Shown piece after piece: positions 1 to 7,578 of a stretch of DNA of 10,476 nt. The notes under the pieces are model-generated. The model had not been told where the DNA came from. It saw only the letters and a program-made list of their open reading frames with translations, and searched no databases. The position numbers and the translations under genes were made by a program. Source of the stretch: Rhodobacterales bacterium 34-62-10 (GTDB lineage: Bacteria; Pseudomonadota; Alphaproteobacteria; Rhodobacterales; Rhodobacteraceae). The stretch's first letter is position 1. Each line of letters starts with the position of its first letter. Where the stretch lies: assembly GCA_002282555.1 (NCBI GenBank), contig NCJR01000047.1, positions 1 through 10,476 of the forward strand, in the 5' to 3' direction.

Positions 1-832
1 GTCGTCCGAAGACACCCAGAATCCGCAGGTTGCGCTGCACGCCCAGCACGGCATAGGCGGCGCGGAAAGCTGTGTCATCTTGGCCGGTTGCGGCGATATA
101 GCGGGTGATCATCGCCTCTTCGATGGCAGGGGGCACGTCGCGCCGGGCATCCTGCAGCACTGACACGAGGTCATAGGCGGGATGCCCTTTCATCGCGTCC
201 TGAAAATCCAGCAATCCCACGCGCGCGGGGCCATCGCGATCAGGCAGCCAGAGCAGGTTTTCGGCGTGATAATCGCGCTGGATCAGGACTGGGGTCGCGC
301 TGGCATGGGCTTGCAGGACCCGTGCGAATGCGGCGCGGAAGGCGTGTTCAGACGTGGTATCTTCGGCCAAGGCCCCGCCCAGATACCACCGCCATGCCAG
401 TGCCGCCATGTCCAGCATGACAGCCGGGTCATAGGGTTTCAGATCATCCGGCGGTGGTGACTTGTGCAGGTGGATCAGCGCATCTGTCGCCGCCTCATAC
501 AGCGGGCGTTCCAGTTCGGGTTGGCGCGGGATCACCTTTGCGAAGAGGTTGTCGCCCAGATCCTCGAGCAGGAGAAACCCGTTCTCGACATCTTCGGCCA
601 TGATCGCGGGCGCGCTGAGGCCGAGGCTGGAGAGGAAGCGGGCGATGCGGACGAAGGGGCGGATATCCTCGCCCTTGTCGCGGGGCGCATCCATCAGGAC
701 GGCGGTTTTTCCATCCAGATGCAGACGGTCATACCGGCGATTGGACGCGTCACCCGCCAAGGGTTTGCGTGTCGCGCCCGCCCAAGCGGTGGAGGCCACG
801 AACCTATCGGCAAGGGTGCTTCGGTCAGTCAT
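1..832 (-). CDS. AmgK-like aminoglycoside-phosphotransferase-fold sugar kinase, partial (C-terminus beyond window)
   Basis: The first 277 residues of an APH/choline-kinase-fold protein (COG3178 type) are visible; the family is usually about 330-340 residues, so the C-terminus lies left of base 1. Visible motifs are a nucleotide-loop GDASNRRY (residues 27-34), the catalytic-loop RDYHAEN with Asp187 and Asn192, and the metal-binding DFQD beginning at Asp209. AmgK is the anomeric kinase that phosphorylates N-acetylmuramate/N-acetylglucosamine at C1 in cell-wall sugar recycling. The ATG at 832 overlaps the tsaE stop by 8 bp, so the two are translationally coupled. In many alphaproteobacteria the next gene is a MurU-like nucleotidyltransferase, which would support the recycling role but lies outside this window. 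Substrate is inferred from family and synteny only; the fold assignment is firm. Confidence 0.85.
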   Translation of the reverse strand, partial: MTDRSTLADRFVASTAWAGATRKPLAGDASNRRYDRLHLDGKTAVLMDAPRDKGEDIRPFVRIARFLSSLGLSAPAIMAEDVENGFLLLEDLGDNLFAKVIPRQPELERPLYEAATDALIHLHKSPPPDDLKPYDPAVMLDMAALAWRWYLGGALAEDTTSEHAFRAAFARVLQAHASATPVLIQRDYHAENLLWLPDRDGPARVGLLDFQDAMKGHPAYDLVSVLQDARRDVPPAIEEAMITRYIAATGQDDTAFRAAYAVLGVQRNLRILGVFGR

Positions 833-1301
833 GCAAAACTCCGGACAGGCGGGCGGCCCATTCAGGGGCGGTCCAGGACAGTGTCAATTCGCGCGAATCT
901 TCGGCCTTGCCCTGCGCGAAATTCAGGGTCAAGGCATCCTGTGGGGCCAAGGATCCCAAGCGGTCCGGCCATTCCACGAGGCAGATCGCGGTCTGGAATG
1001 CGTCGGTCAGGCCCAGTTCGACAACCTGGTCCGGGGATGTGAGCCGGTAAAGATCGGCATGCCAGATCTCGACCCCGTCTGCGTCATAGGTTTGGACAAG
1101 GGTGAAGGTTGGCGAGGGTACATCCTCAAGCGTGGCAAGGCGCGATTGGATCAGGCTGCGCGCGAAATGGGTCTTGCCCGCACCGATCGGACCTTGCAGC
1201 AGAATGGTATCGCCCGGAGCCAGGCATGTGCCAAGGCGTTCGGCCAAAGCCGCTGTCTGATCGGGTGAGGACAGGGTGATACGGGCGGTTTCTTGCGACA
1301 T
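825..1301 (-). CDS. tsaE: TsaE, ATPase of the tRNA threonylcarbamoyladenosine (t6A37) complex
   Basis: A 158-residue cytoplasmic P-loop ATPase. The Walker A is GPIGAGKT (residues 37-44). It is followed by the family signature PSPTFTLV (62-69), HADLYRL (81-87) and the VEWPDR segment with Glu110-Trp111, all typical of TsaE (formerly YjeE). TsaE binds the TsaB-TsaD pair and drives turnover of the complex that puts t6A on ANN-decoding tRNAs. Length is normal for a stand-alone TsaE; in Rhizobiales it is often fused to the phosphotransferase that here is a separate, overlapping downstream gene. The ATG at 1301 is kept because the protein aligns from its first residues, although no clear Shine-Dalgarno precedes it. 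A 52-bp gap separates it from the upstream PAS gene; no terminator is visible there, so co-transcription is likely. Confidence 0.93.
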   Translation of the reverse strand: MSQETARITLSSPDQTAALAERLGTCLAPGDTILLQGPIGAGKTHFARSLIQSRLATLEDVPSPTFTLVQTYDADGVEIWHADLYRLTSPDQVVELGLTDAFQTAICLVEWPDRLGSLAPQDALTLNFAQGKAEDSRELTLSWTAPEWAARLSGVLHD

Positions 1302-1353: not shown

Positions 1354-2958
1354 TCAGGCGGGGCTGTACAAAAGATCGCCGCGTATGGGGGGTGTCACGC
1401 TGTCCAGGGGCTGGAAAAGCACCATCGTCGCGCCACCTGCCATCGGCACCACCTGACATGTCACTGTCCGGCCGTCGCGCAAGGTCACATCCGCCTGCCA
1501 GTCGGCCCGTTCACCGAACTGGACCACGAAGTCACGCAGATCGCCCCAGACCGGCGTGGGCATGCTTCCCGCCTGCCAATGGCGCGAGGCATCGGTGACC
1601 GAAATGTCGGCAAAGCTGCTGTCGGGGTCGATTCCCCACATCTGCCGATAGGCGGTGTTGGAAAAGGCCAGCACGCCGGACGGGGAAAAGACCGCGATGG
1701 ATTGCTCCAACGTGTTGAGGACGGATTGCCCGAGTTCCAGTTGTGACCGGAACCGCCGGGTCAGCGAGATTTCGGCGCTGATATCTTCGAACAGGAAGGC
1801 GACAGCGCCATCGGGATGCGGGCGTCCACTGATCCGGTAGGTCAAGCCGGATGGGAGTGACCACGTCTCAAGGTATTGGCCATTGTCGGCGGCGGCCACC
1901 AGATCGGCGATCTGGTCACGCCAGGAGCGGTAATTCTTGGGTTCTGGCATCATCTGGCGATCCCTGAGCCGGTCAAAGAAGGACAGCAGGTTTGGTCGGG
2001 CGCTGAGGAATTCGGCCGGAAGCGAGGTCAGGTCGATCAGGGCCGGATTGAACAGGGCCAGTTGCCGCTTGCGGTCGAAAATCGCCAGTCCGATGGAAAG
2101 CTGGGCGAAGGTCTTGGTCAAGGTCTGCACGAAATTGCGCTGGGCAATCTCGGCGTTGACGACGGCGTTGACATCGGTGGCATAGTTCATCCAGCCGGCG
2201 TCAAGTCGCAGCGAGCGCACGTCGAACCAATAGGGTTGGACTGATCCGGCGGGCGTGACGGACATCCGGTATGTCGTGCTGCCACCGTCGTCATGGAAGG
2301 GGATCTTGAACAAGGCCGGACAGTCGGCATCAGGCAGCGGCCCGGCCTTGAAGCGGGCGACAAGGTCCCGGTAGGCGGTGTTGGCCCAGAGCACCTGTCC
2401 GGTTCCGTCAGATTGCCAGATCGGATAGGGCGCGCCGGTCACTGCCTGCCGCAGCCACCCGGCCTCGTCGGATGGTGGGGCGGGCGGATGAAGCCGGGAC
2501 AGATTGGGTAGGTGTTCGTTCAGGATCAGCCGCAGATTGCCGTCCCACCATTCAAGGATGATGTGTCCAGAGTCGTTGGGTCCCGCCGCATCAAAGGCGG
2601 TCCTGCCGCTTTCACTGGTCCATTCTGGGCGGACGGGCAGGTTTGGAAACCGGTGCAGCAGAGCGTCGCGCAGGATGTCCCAATCGCTTTTGAGCTTGGA
2701 CATATCGTCTGATGTCATCGGAGCGGCGATATTGTCGAGCAGGCGGGTCGCGGCTTCGGTTGATTGCACGATGTCCTGACCAGCAAAGAGGAACACGACG
2801 GCATCCGCATCCTCGGGCTGCGGCAGGACAGGGAGGCGTGGCGTTTTGCGCTTTTCGGCAAGTTTGTCCGTGACCATGAGCAAGATCAGCAGAAGGCCGC
2901 CAACAAGAACACCGGCGATTACAGCGGTTCCGATCTGAGGCTGGCTGAACAGCTCCAT
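1354..2958 (-). CDS. divL: Membrane-anchored multi-PAS protein lacking a kinase domain, DivL-like
   Basis: A 534-residue protein with one N-terminal membrane helix (about residues 10-30), a charged juxtamembrane stretch, then at least three PAS-like modules at about 165-262, 275-395 and 405-518. These are recognised by repeats of the pattern 'I/LW/VFxxxGxVLxxNTAYRxL' (for example around residues 183-200 and 421-440). The segment at about 52-150 may be a fourth, degenerate PAS. Nothing follows the last PAS: there is no DHp helix pair, no H/Y-box and no HATPase motifs. In R. capsulatus a PAS-domain DivL acts on the CckA-ChpT-CtrA relay and on gene transfer agent production. The position next to tsaE also matches divL in other alphaproteobacteria, as I recall it. 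The start at 2958 is chosen because AAAGGA lies 7 nt upstream; an in-frame ATG at 2985 falls within the predicted -10. The DivL name rests on architecture and synteny. Confidence 0.72.
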   Translation of the reverse strand: MELFSQPQIGTAVIAGVLVGGLLLILLMVTDKLAEKRKTPRLPVLPQPEDADAVVFLFAGQDIVQSTEAATRLLDNIAAPMTSDDMSKLKSDWDILRDALLHRFPNLPVRPEWTSESGRTAFDAAGPNDSGHIILEWWDGNLRLILNEHLPNLSRLHPPAPPSDEAGWLRQAVTGAPYPIWQSDGTGQVLWANTAYRDLVARFKAGPLPDADCPALFKIPFHDDGGSTTYRMSVTPAGSVQPYWFDVRSLRLDAGWMNYATDVNAVVNAEIAQRNFVQTLTKTFAQLSIGLAIFDRKRQLALFNPALIDLTSLPAEFLSARPNLLSFFDRLRDRQMMPEPKNYRSWRDQIADLVAAADNGQYLETWSLPSGLTYRISGRPHPDGAVAFLFEDISAEISLTRRFRSQLELGQSVLNTLEQSIAVFSPSGVLAFSNTAYRQMWGIDPDSSFADISVTDASRHWQAGSMPTPVWGDLRDFVVQFGERADWQADVTLRDGRTVTCQVVPMAGGATMVLFQPLDSVTPPIRGDLLYSPA

Positions 2959-2973
2959 TCGCGTGTCCTTTGA

Positions 2974-2996
2974 TATCTTGTGCAAGATACATCTTG
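2974..2996. repeat. 16-bp perfect palindrome plus a third half-site, overlapping the -10 of the DivL-like gene
   Basis: TATCTTG-TG-CAAGATA (2974-2989) is a perfect inverted repeat with 7-bp arms. A third ATCTTG follows at 2991-2996, so the half-site ATCTTG/CAAGAT recurs three times at 8-bp intervals in alternating orientation. It covers the predicted -10 and transcription start of the PAS gene, so it could be a repressor operator. There is no U-tract as expected of a terminator for regB. I do not recognise the regulator. Confidence 0.5.
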
Positions 2997-3012
2997 AACG
3001 CGAAAAGGTTAA
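2984..3012 (-). promoter_or_regulatory. Candidate promoter of the DivL-like gene
   Basis: On the minus strand TTAACC (3007-3012) is followed after exactly 17 bp by TATCTT (2984-2989), a sigma70-like spacing. The predicted start of transcription near 2977 gives a leader of about 19 nt containing AAAGGA. The -35 is poor on its own and coincides with the downstream half of the CtrA box, which suggests activator dependence. Confidence 0.45.
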
Positions 3013-3023
3013 AGTGGTGTTAA
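3008..3023 (-). promoter_or_regulatory. CtrA box (TTAA-N7-TTAAC) upstream of the DivL-like gene
   Basis: Read on the minus strand, the sequence is TTAA, seven bases, then TTAAC: an exact match to the full CtrA consensus established in Caulobacter and shared by other alphaproteobacteria. It lies in the 93-bp gap between regB and the PAS gene, centred about 57 bp upstream of the chosen start. Its downstream half overlaps the candidate -35 (TTAACC, 3007-3012), the arrangement used by CtrA-activated promoters. Binding is inferred from the motif only. Confidence 0.6.
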
Positions 3024-3051
3024 CAAAGCTTCACAAGGCAAGGACGTGGAT

Positions 3052-4449
3052 TCAGACGTCGATCCGCCGGTTCTGACCCATCGGCATGGCGTTTTCCGGT
3101 GCGCGTGCGTCGATCTTTGAGCGTGGCCACACCACCTCGACGATGGCGCCGCATTTTTCGGGCTGTTCGCCGCTGGCCAGATAGGGATCGCGCCCGTTGG
3201 CGAAGCTGAGTTCGGCACCTGATCGTTCCAGCAGCGTCTTGGCGATGAACAGGCCCAGCCCCATCCCCTCATACTCGGGTCTTTGGATGTTATCCGGCTG
3301 ACTGCGCCGCAGACGCATGAAGGGATCACCGATCCGACCCATCATGCTGGGCGGATAGCCCATCCCGTCATCCATGATCCGAACCGACAGCGTGTCGTCA
3401 TCCCATGTGGTTTCGACCCAGACATTGGCGCGGGCAAAGTCCACGCCATTCTGCAAAAGGTTGCGCAAACCATGCACAAGATCAGGGCGGCGCAGGACTA
3501 TGGGCTGGTTCTGGCTATCCTCGCTGTTCCGACCGTCCTGAAAGTGGATCGCCTTGCCACGGTTCATATGAGGTGCAGCAGCTTCACGCACGACCGTGCC
3601 GAGGGGGGCCTGACGCAGCATCAGGTCATCCTTGCCGGCCCGTCCCATCGAACGCAGGATATCGCGGCATCGATCCGCCTGCTCTCGGATCAGGCGGGCA
3701 TCGTCCTGAAGTTCGGGAAAGCCGTCCAATTCTTCGATCAGTTCGGCGCTTGTCAGTTTGATCGTGGCCAGAGGCGTGCCCAGTTCGTGCGCGGCTGCCG
3801 CCACGACGCCCCCCAGATCGGTCAGTTTCTGCTCGCGGGCCAGCGCCATCTGCGTGGCTTGGAGCGCGTCGGACATGGAGTGCATTTCCTGCGTGACGCG
3901 GCGCGAATAGAAGCTGAGGAAGACGACCGCAATCGTGATCGCCACCCAGTTGCCGAAAACGAAGATATCCGGGACCCGCAGCAGGAAGCCCTGATCGGTG
4001 CGCAGCGGCAGATGAAATTCCGCCAGAAGCGTGACGGCGAGGATCGCGGTGATCCCCAGAAACACCGTGGACCGCAGGGTTAGGACCAAGGCCGACACGG
4101 TGACCGGTCCGAGGATCAGGATGTAGAACGGATTGTGCAGCCCGCCGGTCAGGTAGAGCAGCAGGGCCAGTTGCAGAAGATCGAAAAGAACCATCAGCAG
4201 GTTCTCGGTCTCAGAGAGGCGCTTGTTTTCCGGGAAGATGAACATCGCGATCAGGTTGCCCATGACCGACACGCTGACCACCAACAGGCACAGCGCCATC
4301 TCGATCTGAAGGCCGTAGGCCTGCTGCGCCACGAAAAGCGCGACCAGCTGTCCGATCACGGCGCCCCAGCGCAGAAGGATGATCGTGCGCAGGCGTACCC
4401 AGTTTCCGCGCTCGCGGCCCTTGAGGACGCCAAGTTGACTATCACTCAT
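3052..4449 (-). CDS. regB: RegB/PrrB redox-sensing membrane histidine kinase
   Basis: A 465-residue sensor kinase. About six membrane helices occupy residues 22-183, including the fully conserved quinone-binding heptapeptide GGLHNPF (102-108). The H-box AAAHELGTPLA carries the phosphorylated His221. The redox box ADRCRDILR places the redox-active cysteine at Cys261 (equivalent to Cys265 of R. capsulatus RegB). The ATPase domain has the N-box (N330-N334), DDGMG (360-364) and GMGLGL (395-400). RegB phosphorylates RegA when the respiratory chain/quinone pool is reduced, controlling photosynthesis, CO2 and N2 fixation, and respiration genes. The start at 4449 is preferred over the ATG at 4473 because GAAGG lies 7 nt upstream of it, and the resulting length fits the family. 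It is divergent from senC, as in Rhodobacter. Confidence 0.95.
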   Translation of the reverse strand: MSDSQLGVLKGRERGNWVRLRTIILLRWGAVIGQLVALFVAQQAYGLQIEMALCLLVVSVSVMGNLIAMFIFPENKRLSETENLLMVLFDLLQLALLLYLTGGLHNPFYILILGPVTVSALVLTLRSTVFLGITAILAVTLLAEFHLPLRTDQGFLLRVPDIFVFGNWVAITIAVVFLSFYSRRVTQEMHSMSDALQATQMALAREQKLTDLGGVVAAAAHELGTPLATIKLTSAELIEELDGFPELQDDARLIREQADRCRDILRSMGRAGKDDLMLRQAPLGTVVREAAAPHMNRGKAIHFQDGRNSEDSQNQPIVLRRPDLVHGLRNLLQNGVDFARANVWVETTWDDDTLSVRIMDDGMGYPPSMMGRIGDPFMRLRRSQPDNIQRPEYEGMGLGLFIAKTLLERSGAELSFANGRDPYLASGEQPEKCGAIVEVVWPRSKIDARAPENAMPMGQNRRIDV

Positions 4450-4544
4450 ATGTGCGCCTTCGTCCCGTTGCATATCAGGCCCAAGTCGTAAATATGCACC
4501 CGGCAGGGCAAATGGCCAGCCCCGCCGGGAAAAGGAGACAGAAC
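4450..4544. promoter_or_regulatory. Divergent regB-senC intergenic region
   Basis: These 95 bp separate two divergent start codons and must carry the promoters and leaders of both. For senC a weak candidate is TTGCAT (4468-4473) with TAAATA (4489-4494), a short 15-bp spacer, followed by the ribosome-binding site AAAGGAG at about 4531-4537. No convincing promoter is seen for regB. In R. capsulatus this region is autoregulated by RegA, but I could not identify a clear RegA site by eye. Confidence 0.4.
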
Positions 4545-5174
4545 ATGCTTCGGATCTATGCCATCGCAGCCGCGGGTCTTGTGGTTGCCATGACGGGGGG
4601 TGTTTTCATTTACACGCAATTTGCAGCAGAGCCTGACAAATACGCGCAGTGCCGCAGCACCGCGATTGCAGGCGGCGGCGCGCAGATCGGCGGGCCCTTC
4701 ACCCTGATTGACGAGACTGGCGCAACCGTCACCGATGCCGAGGTGATCGACCAGCCGACGCTGATCTATTTCGGCTATACCTATTGCCCGGATGTCTGCC
4801 CGCTGGACACCGCCCGCAATGCCGAAGCGATCGATATTCTGGAAGAGCGCGGTCTGATGGTGAAGCCTGTGTTCATCTCGATCGATCCCGAACGCGATAC
4901 GCCCGAGGTGGTGGATGCCTTCACCGCGAACCTGCACGAACGGATGCTGGGTCTGACCGGGACGCCCGAGCAGGTGCGCGAGGCCAGCCGCGCCTATCGG
5001 ACCTTCTATCAGAAGCAGGAGCCGGCGGCGGGCGAGGAAGACTACTATCTGGTTGACCATTCGACCATGAGCTATCTGGTGTTCCCCGGGGAAGGTCTGA
5101 TCGACGTATTCCAGCGATCTCTGCGTGCCGATGATGTTGCCGACCGCATCCAGTGCTTTATGGAAGCCAGCTGA
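4545..5174 (+). CDS. senC: SenC/PrrC, SCO1-type copper chaperone for cytochrome oxidase assembly
   Basis: A 209-residue thioredoxin-fold protein anchored by a single N-terminal membrane helix (about residues 5-26), with the rest periplasmic. The copper ligands of SCO proteins are all present: Cys81 and Cys85 in YCPDVCP and His172 in LVDHSTM. The SCO motif around FISIDPERDTP (110-120) is also intact. SCO proteins deliver copper to the CuA or CuB site of haem-copper oxidases; in Rhodobacter SenC/PrrC is needed for cbb3 or aa3 oxidase activity and affects RegBA-dependent regulation. Two further cysteines, Cys36 just after the helix and Cys204 near the C-terminus, are outside the copper motif. 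The start at 4545 is set by AAAGGAG about 7 nt upstream; the frame stays open upstream to 4452, but that would bury the membrane anchor. Confidence 0.93.
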   Translation: MLRIYAIAAAGLVVAMTGGVFIYTQFAAEPDKYAQCRSTAIAGGGAQIGGPFTLIDETGATVTDAEVIDQPTLIYFGYTYCPDVCPLDTARNAEAIDILEERGLMVKPVFISIDPERDTPEVVDAFTANLHERMLGLTGTPEQVREASRAYRTFYQKQEPAAGEEDYYLVDHSTMSYLVFPGEGLIDVFQRSLRADDVADRIQCFMEAS

Positions 5175-5277: not shown

Positions 5278-5829
5278 GTGGCCGAAGACCTTTTCGAAAT
5301 CGGAGATGACAGGACCCTTCTTCTGGTCGATGACGACGACGCCTTCCTCAAGCGGTTGGCCAAAGCGATGGAAAAGCGTGGTTTCGATGTGGAAACAGCC
5401 GACTCCGTTGCGGCGGGCAAAGCGATTGCCACCGCCCGGCCACCTGCTTATGCGGTGTGCGATCTGCGGCTGGAAGATGGCAATGGGCTTGACGTGGTCG
5501 AGGTGTTGCGGGCCAAGCGTCCCGATTGCCGGATCGTTGTTCTGACGGGATATGGTGCCATCGCCACGGCGGTGGCCGCCGTAAAGATCGGGGCGACGGA
5601 TTATCTGAGCAAACCTGCGGATGCGACGGATATTACCAATGCGCTTTTGGCGACGGGTGCCGATCTGCCGCCGCCGCCGGAAAATCCCATGAGCGCCGAC
5701 CGTGTGAGATGGGAACATATCCAGCGGGTTTATGAGCTGTGCGACCGGAATGTTTCGGAAACGGCACGGCGCCTGAACATGCACCGTCGCACCCTGCAGC
5801 GTATTCTGGCAAAGCGTTCACCCCGCTGA
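5278..5829 (+). CDS. regA: RegA/PrrA global redox response regulator
   Basis: A 183-residue two-domain regulator, matching the usual length of RegA (184). The receiver domain (residues 12-127) has the acidic pocket Asp18-Asp21, phosphoacceptor Asp62 in VCDLRLEDG, Thr90 and Lys112. A four-proline linker (131-134) leads to a Fis-type helix-turn-helix (about 143-180), including SETARRLNMHRRTLQR, which is nearly invariant in the RegA/PrrA/ActR family. RegB-phosphorylated RegA activates or represses photosynthesis, respiration, carbon- and nitrogen-fixation genes. Translation starts at GTG 5278, with GGGGGA about 7 nt upstream. Unlike the R. capsulatus cluster, the next gene is not hvrA or ahcY on the same strand but a convergent hpt gene whose end overlaps by 12 bp. 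Confidence 0.96.
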   Translation: MAEDLFEIGDDRTLLLVDDDDAFLKRLAKAMEKRGFDVETADSVAAGKAIATARPPAYAVCDLRLEDGNGLDVVEVLRAKRPDCRIVVLTGYGAIATAVAAVKIGATDYLSKPADATDITNALLATGADLPPPPENPMSADRVRWEHIQRVYELCDRNVSETARRLNMHRRTLQRILAKRSPR

Positions 5830-6165
5830 AGCCTTGTGTCCGAGGCGCTGTGCCACTTCGGACAGGAAGATCTGGCAGGCAGCGTCATAGCCCTGCACGA
5901 TACTTCGCGTATCCACTTGATCGGGATGTCCCTTGGCGGCCAGAGCCTCTCCTTGTTGGCACAGGGCAGAGACATGCGTGAAGCCAAGGTTCAGCAGCCC
6001 GCCCCTGAGGGCGTGGAGGGTCATTTCCAGTTGATGTGGTTCGGGGGCATCGCGCAACTGCGCGACGATGCTGTCCATTTCTTGCACAAACACCTCAACA
6101 ACCTCGTTGAAGCCGGCTTCGCCGATTTCGTCATGAAGGTCGGCGACACGCGTCCAGTCGATCAT
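5818..6165 (-). CDS. Single-domain Hpt (histidine phosphotransfer) protein
   Basis: A 115-residue, entirely helical-looking soluble protein. The signature HALRGGLLNLGF places the candidate phosphoacceptor at His51, followed by the small/hydrophobic pattern and conserved LGF of Hpt helix bundles. The upstream acidic helix (about 14-37) and downstream helix (about 60-80) complete a four-helix arrangement. Such proteins relay phosphate between a hybrid kinase and a response regulator. No kinase is adjacent; the divergent gene encodes a REC-PP2C phosphatase that is the obvious candidate partner. GGAG lies 8 nt upstream of the ATG at 6165. The 3' end overlaps convergent regA by 12 bp, so there is no room for a terminator between the two genes. 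It is not ChpT-like, because it lacks a pseudo-HATPase domain. Confidence 0.85.
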   Translation of the reverse strand: MIDWTRVADLHDEIGEAGFNEVVEVFVQEMDSIVAQLRDAPEPHQLEMTLHALRGGLLNLGFTHVSALCQQGEALAAKGHPDQVDTRSIVQGYDAACQIFLSEVAQRLGHKASAG

Positions 6166-6190
6166 TGCAATACTCCGCCAGATGATCGCC

Positions 6191-6214
6191 AGTTTAGGGG
6201 AGATGCCCTAAGCT
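6191..6214. repeat. Imperfect inverted repeat between divergent hpt and REC-PP2C genes
   Basis: AGTTTAGGG (6191-6199) and CCCTAAGCT (6206-6214) are 9-bp arms with one mismatch around a 6-bp spacer; the inner TTAGGG/CCCTAA is perfect. It sits 26 bp upstream of hpt and about 90 bp upstream of the phosphatase gene, in an AT-richer 138-bp region. A shared operator for the two divergent genes is possible. No clear -35/-10 pair could be assigned here. Confidence 0.45.
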
Positions 6215-6303
6215 AATGTAAACGTGAAAAATTTTAAGGTTCAGTTTCTGTCAACGAATGACCGCTACACCGAATCCCGACGAGGATGGAGAGGGAAAAA
6301 CCG

Positions 6304-7578
6304 GTGTCGGCCCAGGTGCACAAACCCCTTGGTGATCCGCATGACGCGGCAGACCCACAGCCAAGGCCGCTGCATGTGCTGGTCGTGGATGACAGTGGCT
6401 TGCAGCGACGGATAGTGTCGGCCTCTTTGATCCGCTGGGGTTTTCGTGTGTCCGAGGCTGACAATGGGCAGATCGCGCTGAGCCTGTGTCAATCGGACCC
6501 GCCCGATCTGGTGCTGAGCGACTGGATGATGCCGGGCATGGACGGGCTTGAGTTCTGCAAAGCGTTTCGCCACCTGCCGCGGGAGGATTATGGCTATTTC
6601 ATCCTGCTCACCTCGAAAAGTGAGAAGGAAGAAGTTGCGATGGGTCTGGATTGCGGCGCGGATGATTTCCTGACCAAACCGGTGAACCCGGCGGAATTGC
6701 GTGCAAGGATCAATGCCGGGATGCGGATCATCGACATGCAGCGGCAGCTGACCGAGAAGAACCGCCTGATCGGTAGCACCCTGCTGGAGCTGCAGACGCT
6801 TTATGACGCGCTTGACAGTGATCTGGTCCAGGCCAAGAAACTTCAACAATCGCTGGTGCGTGAAAGGTTCCGCGATTTCGGGACGGCGCAGGTGTCGCTT
6901 TTGTTGCGGTCCAGCGGGCATGTGGGGGGCGATCTTGTCGGGTTCTATCCCGCAGGCGAGACACGTGTCGGGCTGTTCGCGATCGATGTGTCGGGGCATG
7001 GCATCAGTTCGGCACTGATGACGGCGCGGCTTGCCGGGTATCTGTCACCCGGTTCGCCCGAATACAATGTTGCGCTGACGCGGCTGGAGGATGGAACCCA
7101 TGGCCCCCTGCCCCCGGCACAGGTGGTTGAAACCCTGAACCGTCTTGTGCTTGAGGAGTTGCAGACCGAGCATTATTTCACGCTGCTTCTGGCAGATCTG
7201 GATCTGGTTTCGGGGCGTGTCGTGATGGTGCAGGCCGGGCATCCGCATCCGATGATCCAGCGGGTCGATGGCCGACTTGAGGTGTTGGGTCAGGGTGGTC
7301 TTCCGGTTGGCCTGATTGAAGGTGCCGGATTTGAGGAGTTCGACTGTGTTCTGGCGCCCGGCGACCGTCTGGTGATCCTGTCGGACGGGGTGATGGAATG
7401 TCCCGATCCGGCAAACGTCCTGCTGGGCCATGATGGTGTCGCAACCATCCTTGATGACTTGGCGGGGCTGGCGGGCACTTCGTTTCTGGAAGCCCTGATC
7501 TGGCGCGTGACATCCTATGCGGGGGGGCGCGACTTTCCCGATGACGTATCGGCCATCACGCTGGAATTTGTCGGATAG
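6304..7578 (+). CDS. Response regulator with REC and PP2C (RsbU/SpoIIE-type) serine phosphatase domains
   Basis: A 424-residue fusion. The receiver domain (about 23-138) has Asp29/Asp30, phosphoacceptor Asp73 in LSDWMMPGMDG, Thr103 and Lys125. A coiled-coil-like helix (about 140-190) links it to a PP2C phosphatase domain that retains the metal ligands: GGD (Asp210), DVSGHG (Asp228), SDG (Asp361) and a C-terminal DD (413-414). Such proteins dephosphorylate anti-sigma-factor antagonists, releasing a sigma factor or another partner. Known relatives in architecture are Pseudomonas HsbR (paired with HptB) and R. capsulatus RbaY, which affects gene transfer agent production. GTG 6304 is chosen because GAGGG lies 8-9 nt upstream. 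The in-frame ATG at 6286 has GAGG immediately against it with no spacer, but cannot be excluded; it would add six residues. The target protein is not encoded in the window. Confidence 0.88.
   Translation: MSAQVHKPLGDPHDAADPQPRPLHVLVVDDSGLQRRIVSASLIRWGFRVSEADNGQIALSLCQSDPPDLVLSDWMMPGMDGLEFCKAFRHLPREDYGYFILLTSKSEKEEVAMGLDCGADDFLTKPVNPAELRARINAGMRIIDMQRQLTEKNRLIGSTLLELQTLYDALDSDLVQAKKLQQSLVRERFRDFGTAQVSLLLRSSGHVGGDLVGFYPAGETRVGLFAIDVSGHGISSALMTARLAGYLSPGSPEYNVALTRLEDGTHGPLPPAQVVETLNRLVLEELQTEHYFTLLLADLDLVSGRVVMVQAGHPHPMIQRVDGRLEVLGQGGLPVGLIEGAGFEEFDCVLAPGDRLVILSDGVMECPDPANVLLGHDGVATILDDLAGLAGTSFLEALIWRVTSYAGGRDFPDDVSAITLEFVG

Follow-up and report, generated by a model that had tools for sequence, protein, structure and literature searches.

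An exact CtrA full box lies in the gap between regB and divL of the DNA stretch analysed here (10,476 nucleotides; the window), and a box at this position after regB is strongly conserved across the family Rhodobacteraceae. From its sequence context, and by analogy with characterised CtrA promoters, we consider it highly likely that this box forms the core of a dedicated, CtrA-activated divL promoter, which would create positive feedback through DivL. Both flanking genes are read from the minus strand. The sensor histidine kinase gene regB (3052..4473; NF045988, 780 bits, cut-off 570) lies immediately upstream of a short-form divL (1354..2958; 534 aa from the ATG at 2958, with PAS matches), whose likely ribosome-binding site, AAAGGA (2966..2971, minus strand), can be read directly 7 nt ahead of the start codon. 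Downstream of divL, on the same strand, is an ORF (825..1301) that we take to be tsaE-like. On the other side of regB, the plus strand carries senC (4545..5174; SCO1/SenC, PF02630) and the response regulator gene regA (5278..5829; NF033791, 319 bits, cut-off 250).

The box spans 3008..3024. Read on the minus strand from 3023 to 3008, it is TTAA-N7-TTAAC with zero mismatches, as the initial annotation had stated, and its downstream half is TTAACC; the core is symmetric, so that the plus strand at 3009-3024 likewise reads TTAA-N7-TTAAC and the box is exact on both strands. The word TTAA-N7-TTAA occurs exactly once in the window (3009-3023), compared with 0.01 occurrences expected from dinucleotide shuffles, where one of 200 shuffles contained it. 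Across the source assembly (2.66 Mb, 72% complete), the exact word is found at six places and the reversed control pattern at 13, an absence of enrichment that would fit a chance AT-rich word in the gap. Given this absence, the word alone is no evidence, and the case for the box rests on its position and its conservation.

Conservation was assessed by comparing the gap across relatives, a check that had been proposed together with the initial annotation. Of 295 Rhodobacteraceae genomes, each labelled as a different genus and including the window's own genome, 264 gave a DivL match (E up to 1e-20). Loci were picked by DivL similarity and comprised 130 top-ranked places, 30 hand-picked weak scorers, five loci from the same genus and three further relatives, and the box was sought from 60 bases before to 200 bases after the regB stop codon. 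RegB was detected in 126 of the 130 top-ranked places and in 29 of the 30 weak scorers; the five loci in which it was not detectable (L008, L098, L117, L129 and L193) are omitted from the box counts. In counts that ignore the relatedness of the genomes, as do all counts and tests reported here, an exact box is present at 115 of the 126 top-ranked loci with RegB and a one-mismatch box at the remaining 11. The control word AATT-N7-AATT was found at four of these 126 loci, and shuffled gaps gave a mean of 0.2 exact boxes per 126 loci over 20 rounds. Taking all divL loci with a detectable regB together, own genome included, the box is exact in 142 of 163, has one mismatch in 16 and has at least two mismatches in five. 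It is also exact in all five same-genus genomes, while a sixth genome of that genus (79% complete) gave no DivL match. The comparison thus bore out the annotated site, and these counts, set against the two controls on the first set of loci, reduce the likelihood that the box is a chance AT-rich word to a practically negligible level. The five loci with at least two mismatches (L185, L189, L191, L172 and L177) count against a CtrA-dependent divL promoter, as ctrA is present in all five genomes. As a separate observation, three of these five loci have a long DivL, with open frames of 755-881 aa.

The 115 exact boxes were profiled in the orientation of divL, taking the box with a following C where a gap held two of them. 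Besides the box, the profile shows conservation of an A followed four bases later by a T (nAnnnT), the hallmark of a -10 hexamer. These letters follow TTAACC after 9 bp in 51 and after 10 bp in 48 of the 115 loci, and at one or other spacing in 93, compared with 1-10 loci at other offsets; the 9- or 10-bp register is also found in all five same-genus genomes. In the window, the conserved hexamer is CAAGAT (2991..2996, minus strand; A at position 2 and T at position 6), 10 bp after TTAACC. If its A is assigned to -11, the box has its right half beginning at -28. A right half at -27/-28 is also the arrangement in the mapped CtrA-dependent promoters of the R. sphaeroides fla2 system, which are reported to have the box near -35, an invariant A at -11 and 23-24 nt from box to start, and among which changing -27/-28 reduced expression of flgB2 (PMC6180460). 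The G at -4 of five R. sphaeroides flagellar promoters is an A in the divL promoter, a difference in a feature that is not part of a general definition of these promoters. Sequence and analogy together indicate that the box stands in for the -35 element in the predicted divL promoter. With the same box-to-start distance, transcription would begin at about 2983..2985 on the minus strand, 25-27 nt ahead of the divL ATG, rather than near 2977 as first predicted. No consensus sigma-70 promoter (-35 and -10 elements spaced by 16-18 bp) was found between 2900 and 3100, which is expected if CtrA supplies the -35 contact, although a promoterless gap would look alike.

This register bears directly on the promoter that the initial annotation had proposed, in which TTAACC is a true -35 element placed 17 bp from a -10 element TATCTT (2984..2989, minus strand) and is overlapped by CtrA. 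Both words and their spacing are present in the window, and -10 letters also occur at this register in two of the five same-genus loci. Across the profile, however, the 17-bp spacer has -10 letters in 5 of 115 boxes, a background value inside the range of the other offsets, against the 51 and 48 found at 9 and 10 bp, and a 17-bp layout is at odds with the CtrA promoters mapped in R. sphaeroides. We therefore regard it as very unlikely that TTAACC serves as a conventional -35 element, and TATCTT lies off the conserved register. The -10 region at 2980-2999 also contains an inverted pair of alternating CAAGAT and ATCTTG half-sites (CAAGAT-GT-ATCTTG-CA-CAAGAT). This palindrome was considered as a repressor site and rejected, as both halves are missing from the corresponding gaps in all five same-genus genomes, and it is probably a product of chance.

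The gene downstream of the box is identified by its sequence and that of its relatives as a true "short" DivL. The 534-aa window protein has PAS matches that include PF12860, and no match to a HisKA/HATPase (pseudokinase) domain was found in it; a short form of DivL has been reported for the Rhodobacterales (PMC2877005, PMC9430884). A protein search returned 4302 relatives, the best of which is 82% identical. Ten genomes from other families of the class matched DivL, and the proteins of the nine that were fetched (L159-L167) run 244-328 residues beyond the aligned part. Eight of these nine feature the H-box tyrosine within the motif SY[EQ]LR[TN]P, a tyrosine in place of the kinase phospho-histidine being the hallmark of DivL (PMC4211667). 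The best PDB match of one of them, L160, is DivL itself (4q20, 4e-42), while the window protein gave no PDB match at 0.01. Together with the PF12860 match, these relatives support the DivL-like call that had been made from the window sequence. A plasmid search for DivL gave seven records, from Rhizobiales and Sphingomonas, at 25-26% identity. A comparison with R. capsulatus divL was made through its published qPCR primers (PMC9143464), whose sequences would encode PTLYAF and MTELEQ. The first peptide is found exactly in the regB-linked DivL of three genomes, and of the 21 bases of the MTELEQ primer, 17 and 20 match in the two of these loci that reach far enough. R. capsulatus DivL has reportedly been characterised by Westbye et al. 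in 2018.

There is a hint that the box is commoner alongside a kinase-less DivL. In a small, hand-picked set of loci that hold the whole gene, 49 of 57 with a short DivL have an exact box, compared with 3 of 7 whose product is extended at the C terminus by 150 residues or more. The count leaves out two loci open at the end and two without RegB, and it includes L188, probably a split gene, among the seven long ones. The hint agrees with published work that links CtrA control of divL to loss of the kinase domain and of DivK.

The association between box, divL and ctrA was also followed in genomes that lack one of them. No divL was called in 31 genomes; regB was sought in 20 of these and found in eight, where an exact box is present in none and a one-mismatch box in two. 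Five of these eight loci are clean, two (in G017 and G194) hold a weak, sub-threshold divL-like ORF, and in G069 the contig ends 83 bp after regB. By eye, four of the eight loci (L195, L196, L198 and L199) have a tsaE-like ORF straight after regB, as if divL had been excised. Of the 295 genomes, 271 gave a CtrA match at E up to 1e-60, 266 of them above the curated cut-off, and a recheck of the 24 CtrA-negative genomes, in which all candidates were scored, gave none above this cut-off. Called divL is absent in 17 of these 24 genomes, compared with 14 of the other 271 (Fisher p 4e-14, with relatedness ignored). Overall, divL tends to be absent where ctrA is absent, with one clear exception, G184.

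Seven genomes have divL without a detected CtrA, of which six are at most 87% complete and G184 is 99% complete. In the loci examined, the divL gene is regB-linked in five of the seven, and the box is exact in four of these, including G184, and has one mismatch in the fifth. The retention of exact boxes in four of five genomes without detected CtrA counts against control by CtrA: either ctrA was missed, three of the four genomes being 73-87% complete and the fourth, G184 (locus L221), 99% complete, or the link between box and CtrA is not a strict one. A rival reading is that the site mainly serves a different regulator that recognises TTAA, such as a Crp/Fnr protein. The box of G184 speaks for it, and FnrL binding beside divL has been suggested for R. 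capsulatus, with Dnr/Fnr sites sharing a half-site with CtrA. However, what is conserved is the full CtrA site with its 7-bp spacing and not an Fnr palindrome, and most genomes without a detected ctrA (17 of 24) also lack a called divL, which together make a different principal regulator highly improbable.

Regarding the CtrA relay itself, the source assembly encodes a CtrA-type ORF that covers model positions 1-172 of 224 and scores 304 bits against a cut-off of 350, a shortfall that is probably due to the ORF being cut short, and a ChpT-type Pfam match above its cut-off. The CtrA-type ORF (L131, G000:C199, about 555-1136) leaves the family after position 172, possibly at an assembly join. 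Upstream of this ORF, a one-mismatch box followed after 9 bp by CAGGGT, in the geometry of the divL site, can be seen by eye.

The proposed mechanism builds on features observed directly, namely the conserved box with its -10 register, the identity of DivL, the cut-short ctrA-type ORF and the ChpT-type match. Phosphorylated CtrA would bind the box in the place of the -35 element and recruit sigma-70 RNA polymerase to the weak -10 element CAAGAT 10 bp downstream, with initiation at about 2983-2985. The resulting DivL, with PAS domains and no kinase domain, would stimulate CckA, which, through ChpT, would phosphorylate CtrA and close a positive feedback loop. For binding, activation, the start site and the sign of the loop, we extrapolate from work in R. 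sphaeroides, D. shibae and R. capsulatus. A working CtrA site could instead repress divL and provide negative feedback. Caulobacter CtrA can repress, for example from a half site on the -10 element of ctrA P1, and R. sphaeroides has an inhibitory loop through Osp, which is activated by CtrA and inhibits CckA (PMC9430884). The divL box, however, is at an activating -35 position and not over the -10 element or the start, and the divL transcript is down, not up, in D. shibae ctrA-pathway mutants (PMC4046655), so we consider repression very unlikely. The proposed divL loop and the Osp loop would share a design, in that each has a CtrA-activated gene acting back on CckA in the Rhodobacterales, with the difference that Osp inhibits CckA and DivL is expected to stimulate it. 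All things considered, the site is real and very probably functions as an activating CtrA promoter with positive feedback through DivL.

A link between CtrA and divL is already in print, and the window is a well-supported new instance of it. From a multi-genome scan, Brilli et al. (2010; PMC2877005) predicted that CtrA controls itself, cckA and divL in the "cluster B" Rhodobacterales and noted the feedback; in that group DivK is absent and DivL lacks a kinase domain, as does the window protein. The available passages of that study contain neither a promoter register nor a count of ctrA/divL co-loss, both of which are given here. Wang et al. (2014; PMC4046655) described a predicted CtrA site in the divL (Dshi_3433) promoter of D. 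shibae and lower divL expression in ctrA, cckA and chpT mutants; D. shibae belongs to a different genus from the window, and a predicted CtrA site in the divL promoter is common to both. In R. capsulatus, rcc00042 (divL) is reported to be affected by loss of CtrA (PMC4158056), and citing texts state that DivL enhances CckA kinase activity. A 2019 D. shibae paper reports that divL is up at 2-3 h after addition of autoinducer, and in the passages available it names CtrA sites for ctrA and cckA, with divL not among them, a point against CtrA control of divL. That paper applies the name DivL to two genes, Dshi_3433 with two PAS domains and Dshi_3346 with PAS, kinase and receiver domains, and at one point treats the latter as the counterpart of R. 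capsulatus divL; judged by domains, it is Dshi_3433 and not Dshi_3346 that resembles the window DivL. The loop from CtrA through divL to CckA, ChpT and CtrA that had been suggested for this locus is thus supported by the conserved predicted site, the identity of DivL and these published data, and it is not novel. Among the matches listed from open-access main texts, the passages available offer, apart from the 2010 scan, nothing that surveys the divL box, its register or co-loss with ctrA. As far as these passages allow, the new elements are the family-wide count of the box, the register with its corrected -10 element and the table of co-loss.

The predicted CtrA-divL link is thereby seen to rest on a strongly kept site, and the exact promoter layout and start site can now be tested. 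Conserved feedback that acts positively on CtrA activation would be relevant to the question of why motility and gene-transfer-agent traits are switched on in just part of a population. A broader and tentative idea, which we think possible but doubtful, is that divL has become essentially a CtrA-only gene in the family: it has no -35 element of its own, the box tracks divL and not regB, divL is mostly absent from genomes that lack ctrA, and the box is commoner with kinase-less DivL in the small sample. The lost control by DivK might then be offset by a transcriptional positive feedback that renders CtrA activity switch-like, which could explain why gene transfer agents are made in only a few cells.

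Further candidate CtrA-related features were noted in the window and its assembly. Beside regA lie divergent genes for an Hpt-domain protein (5818..6165, minus strand) and a REC-SpoIIE phosphatase (6286..7578, plus strand), both recognised by a domain scan and together spanning 5818-7578. The gap between them contains CtrA sites with two mismatches at best. The domains of D. shibae Dshi_3484/3485 match those of this pair, and Dshi_3484 is reported to have a CtrA site. Elsewhere in the assembly, one exact box (L138, G000:C244:4190-4204) is found just 3' of an ORF that looks LuxR-type, near an ORF resembling elongation factor Ts, both judged by eye. In a genome-wide scan restricted to the 10-bp spacer, an exact box followed by C and by the conserved -10 letters occurs at two places in the assembly, one of which is the divL site. 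The other (L137, G000:C201:3599-3631) is a candidate CtrA target and lies upstream of a small ORF that appears lipoprotein-like by eye.
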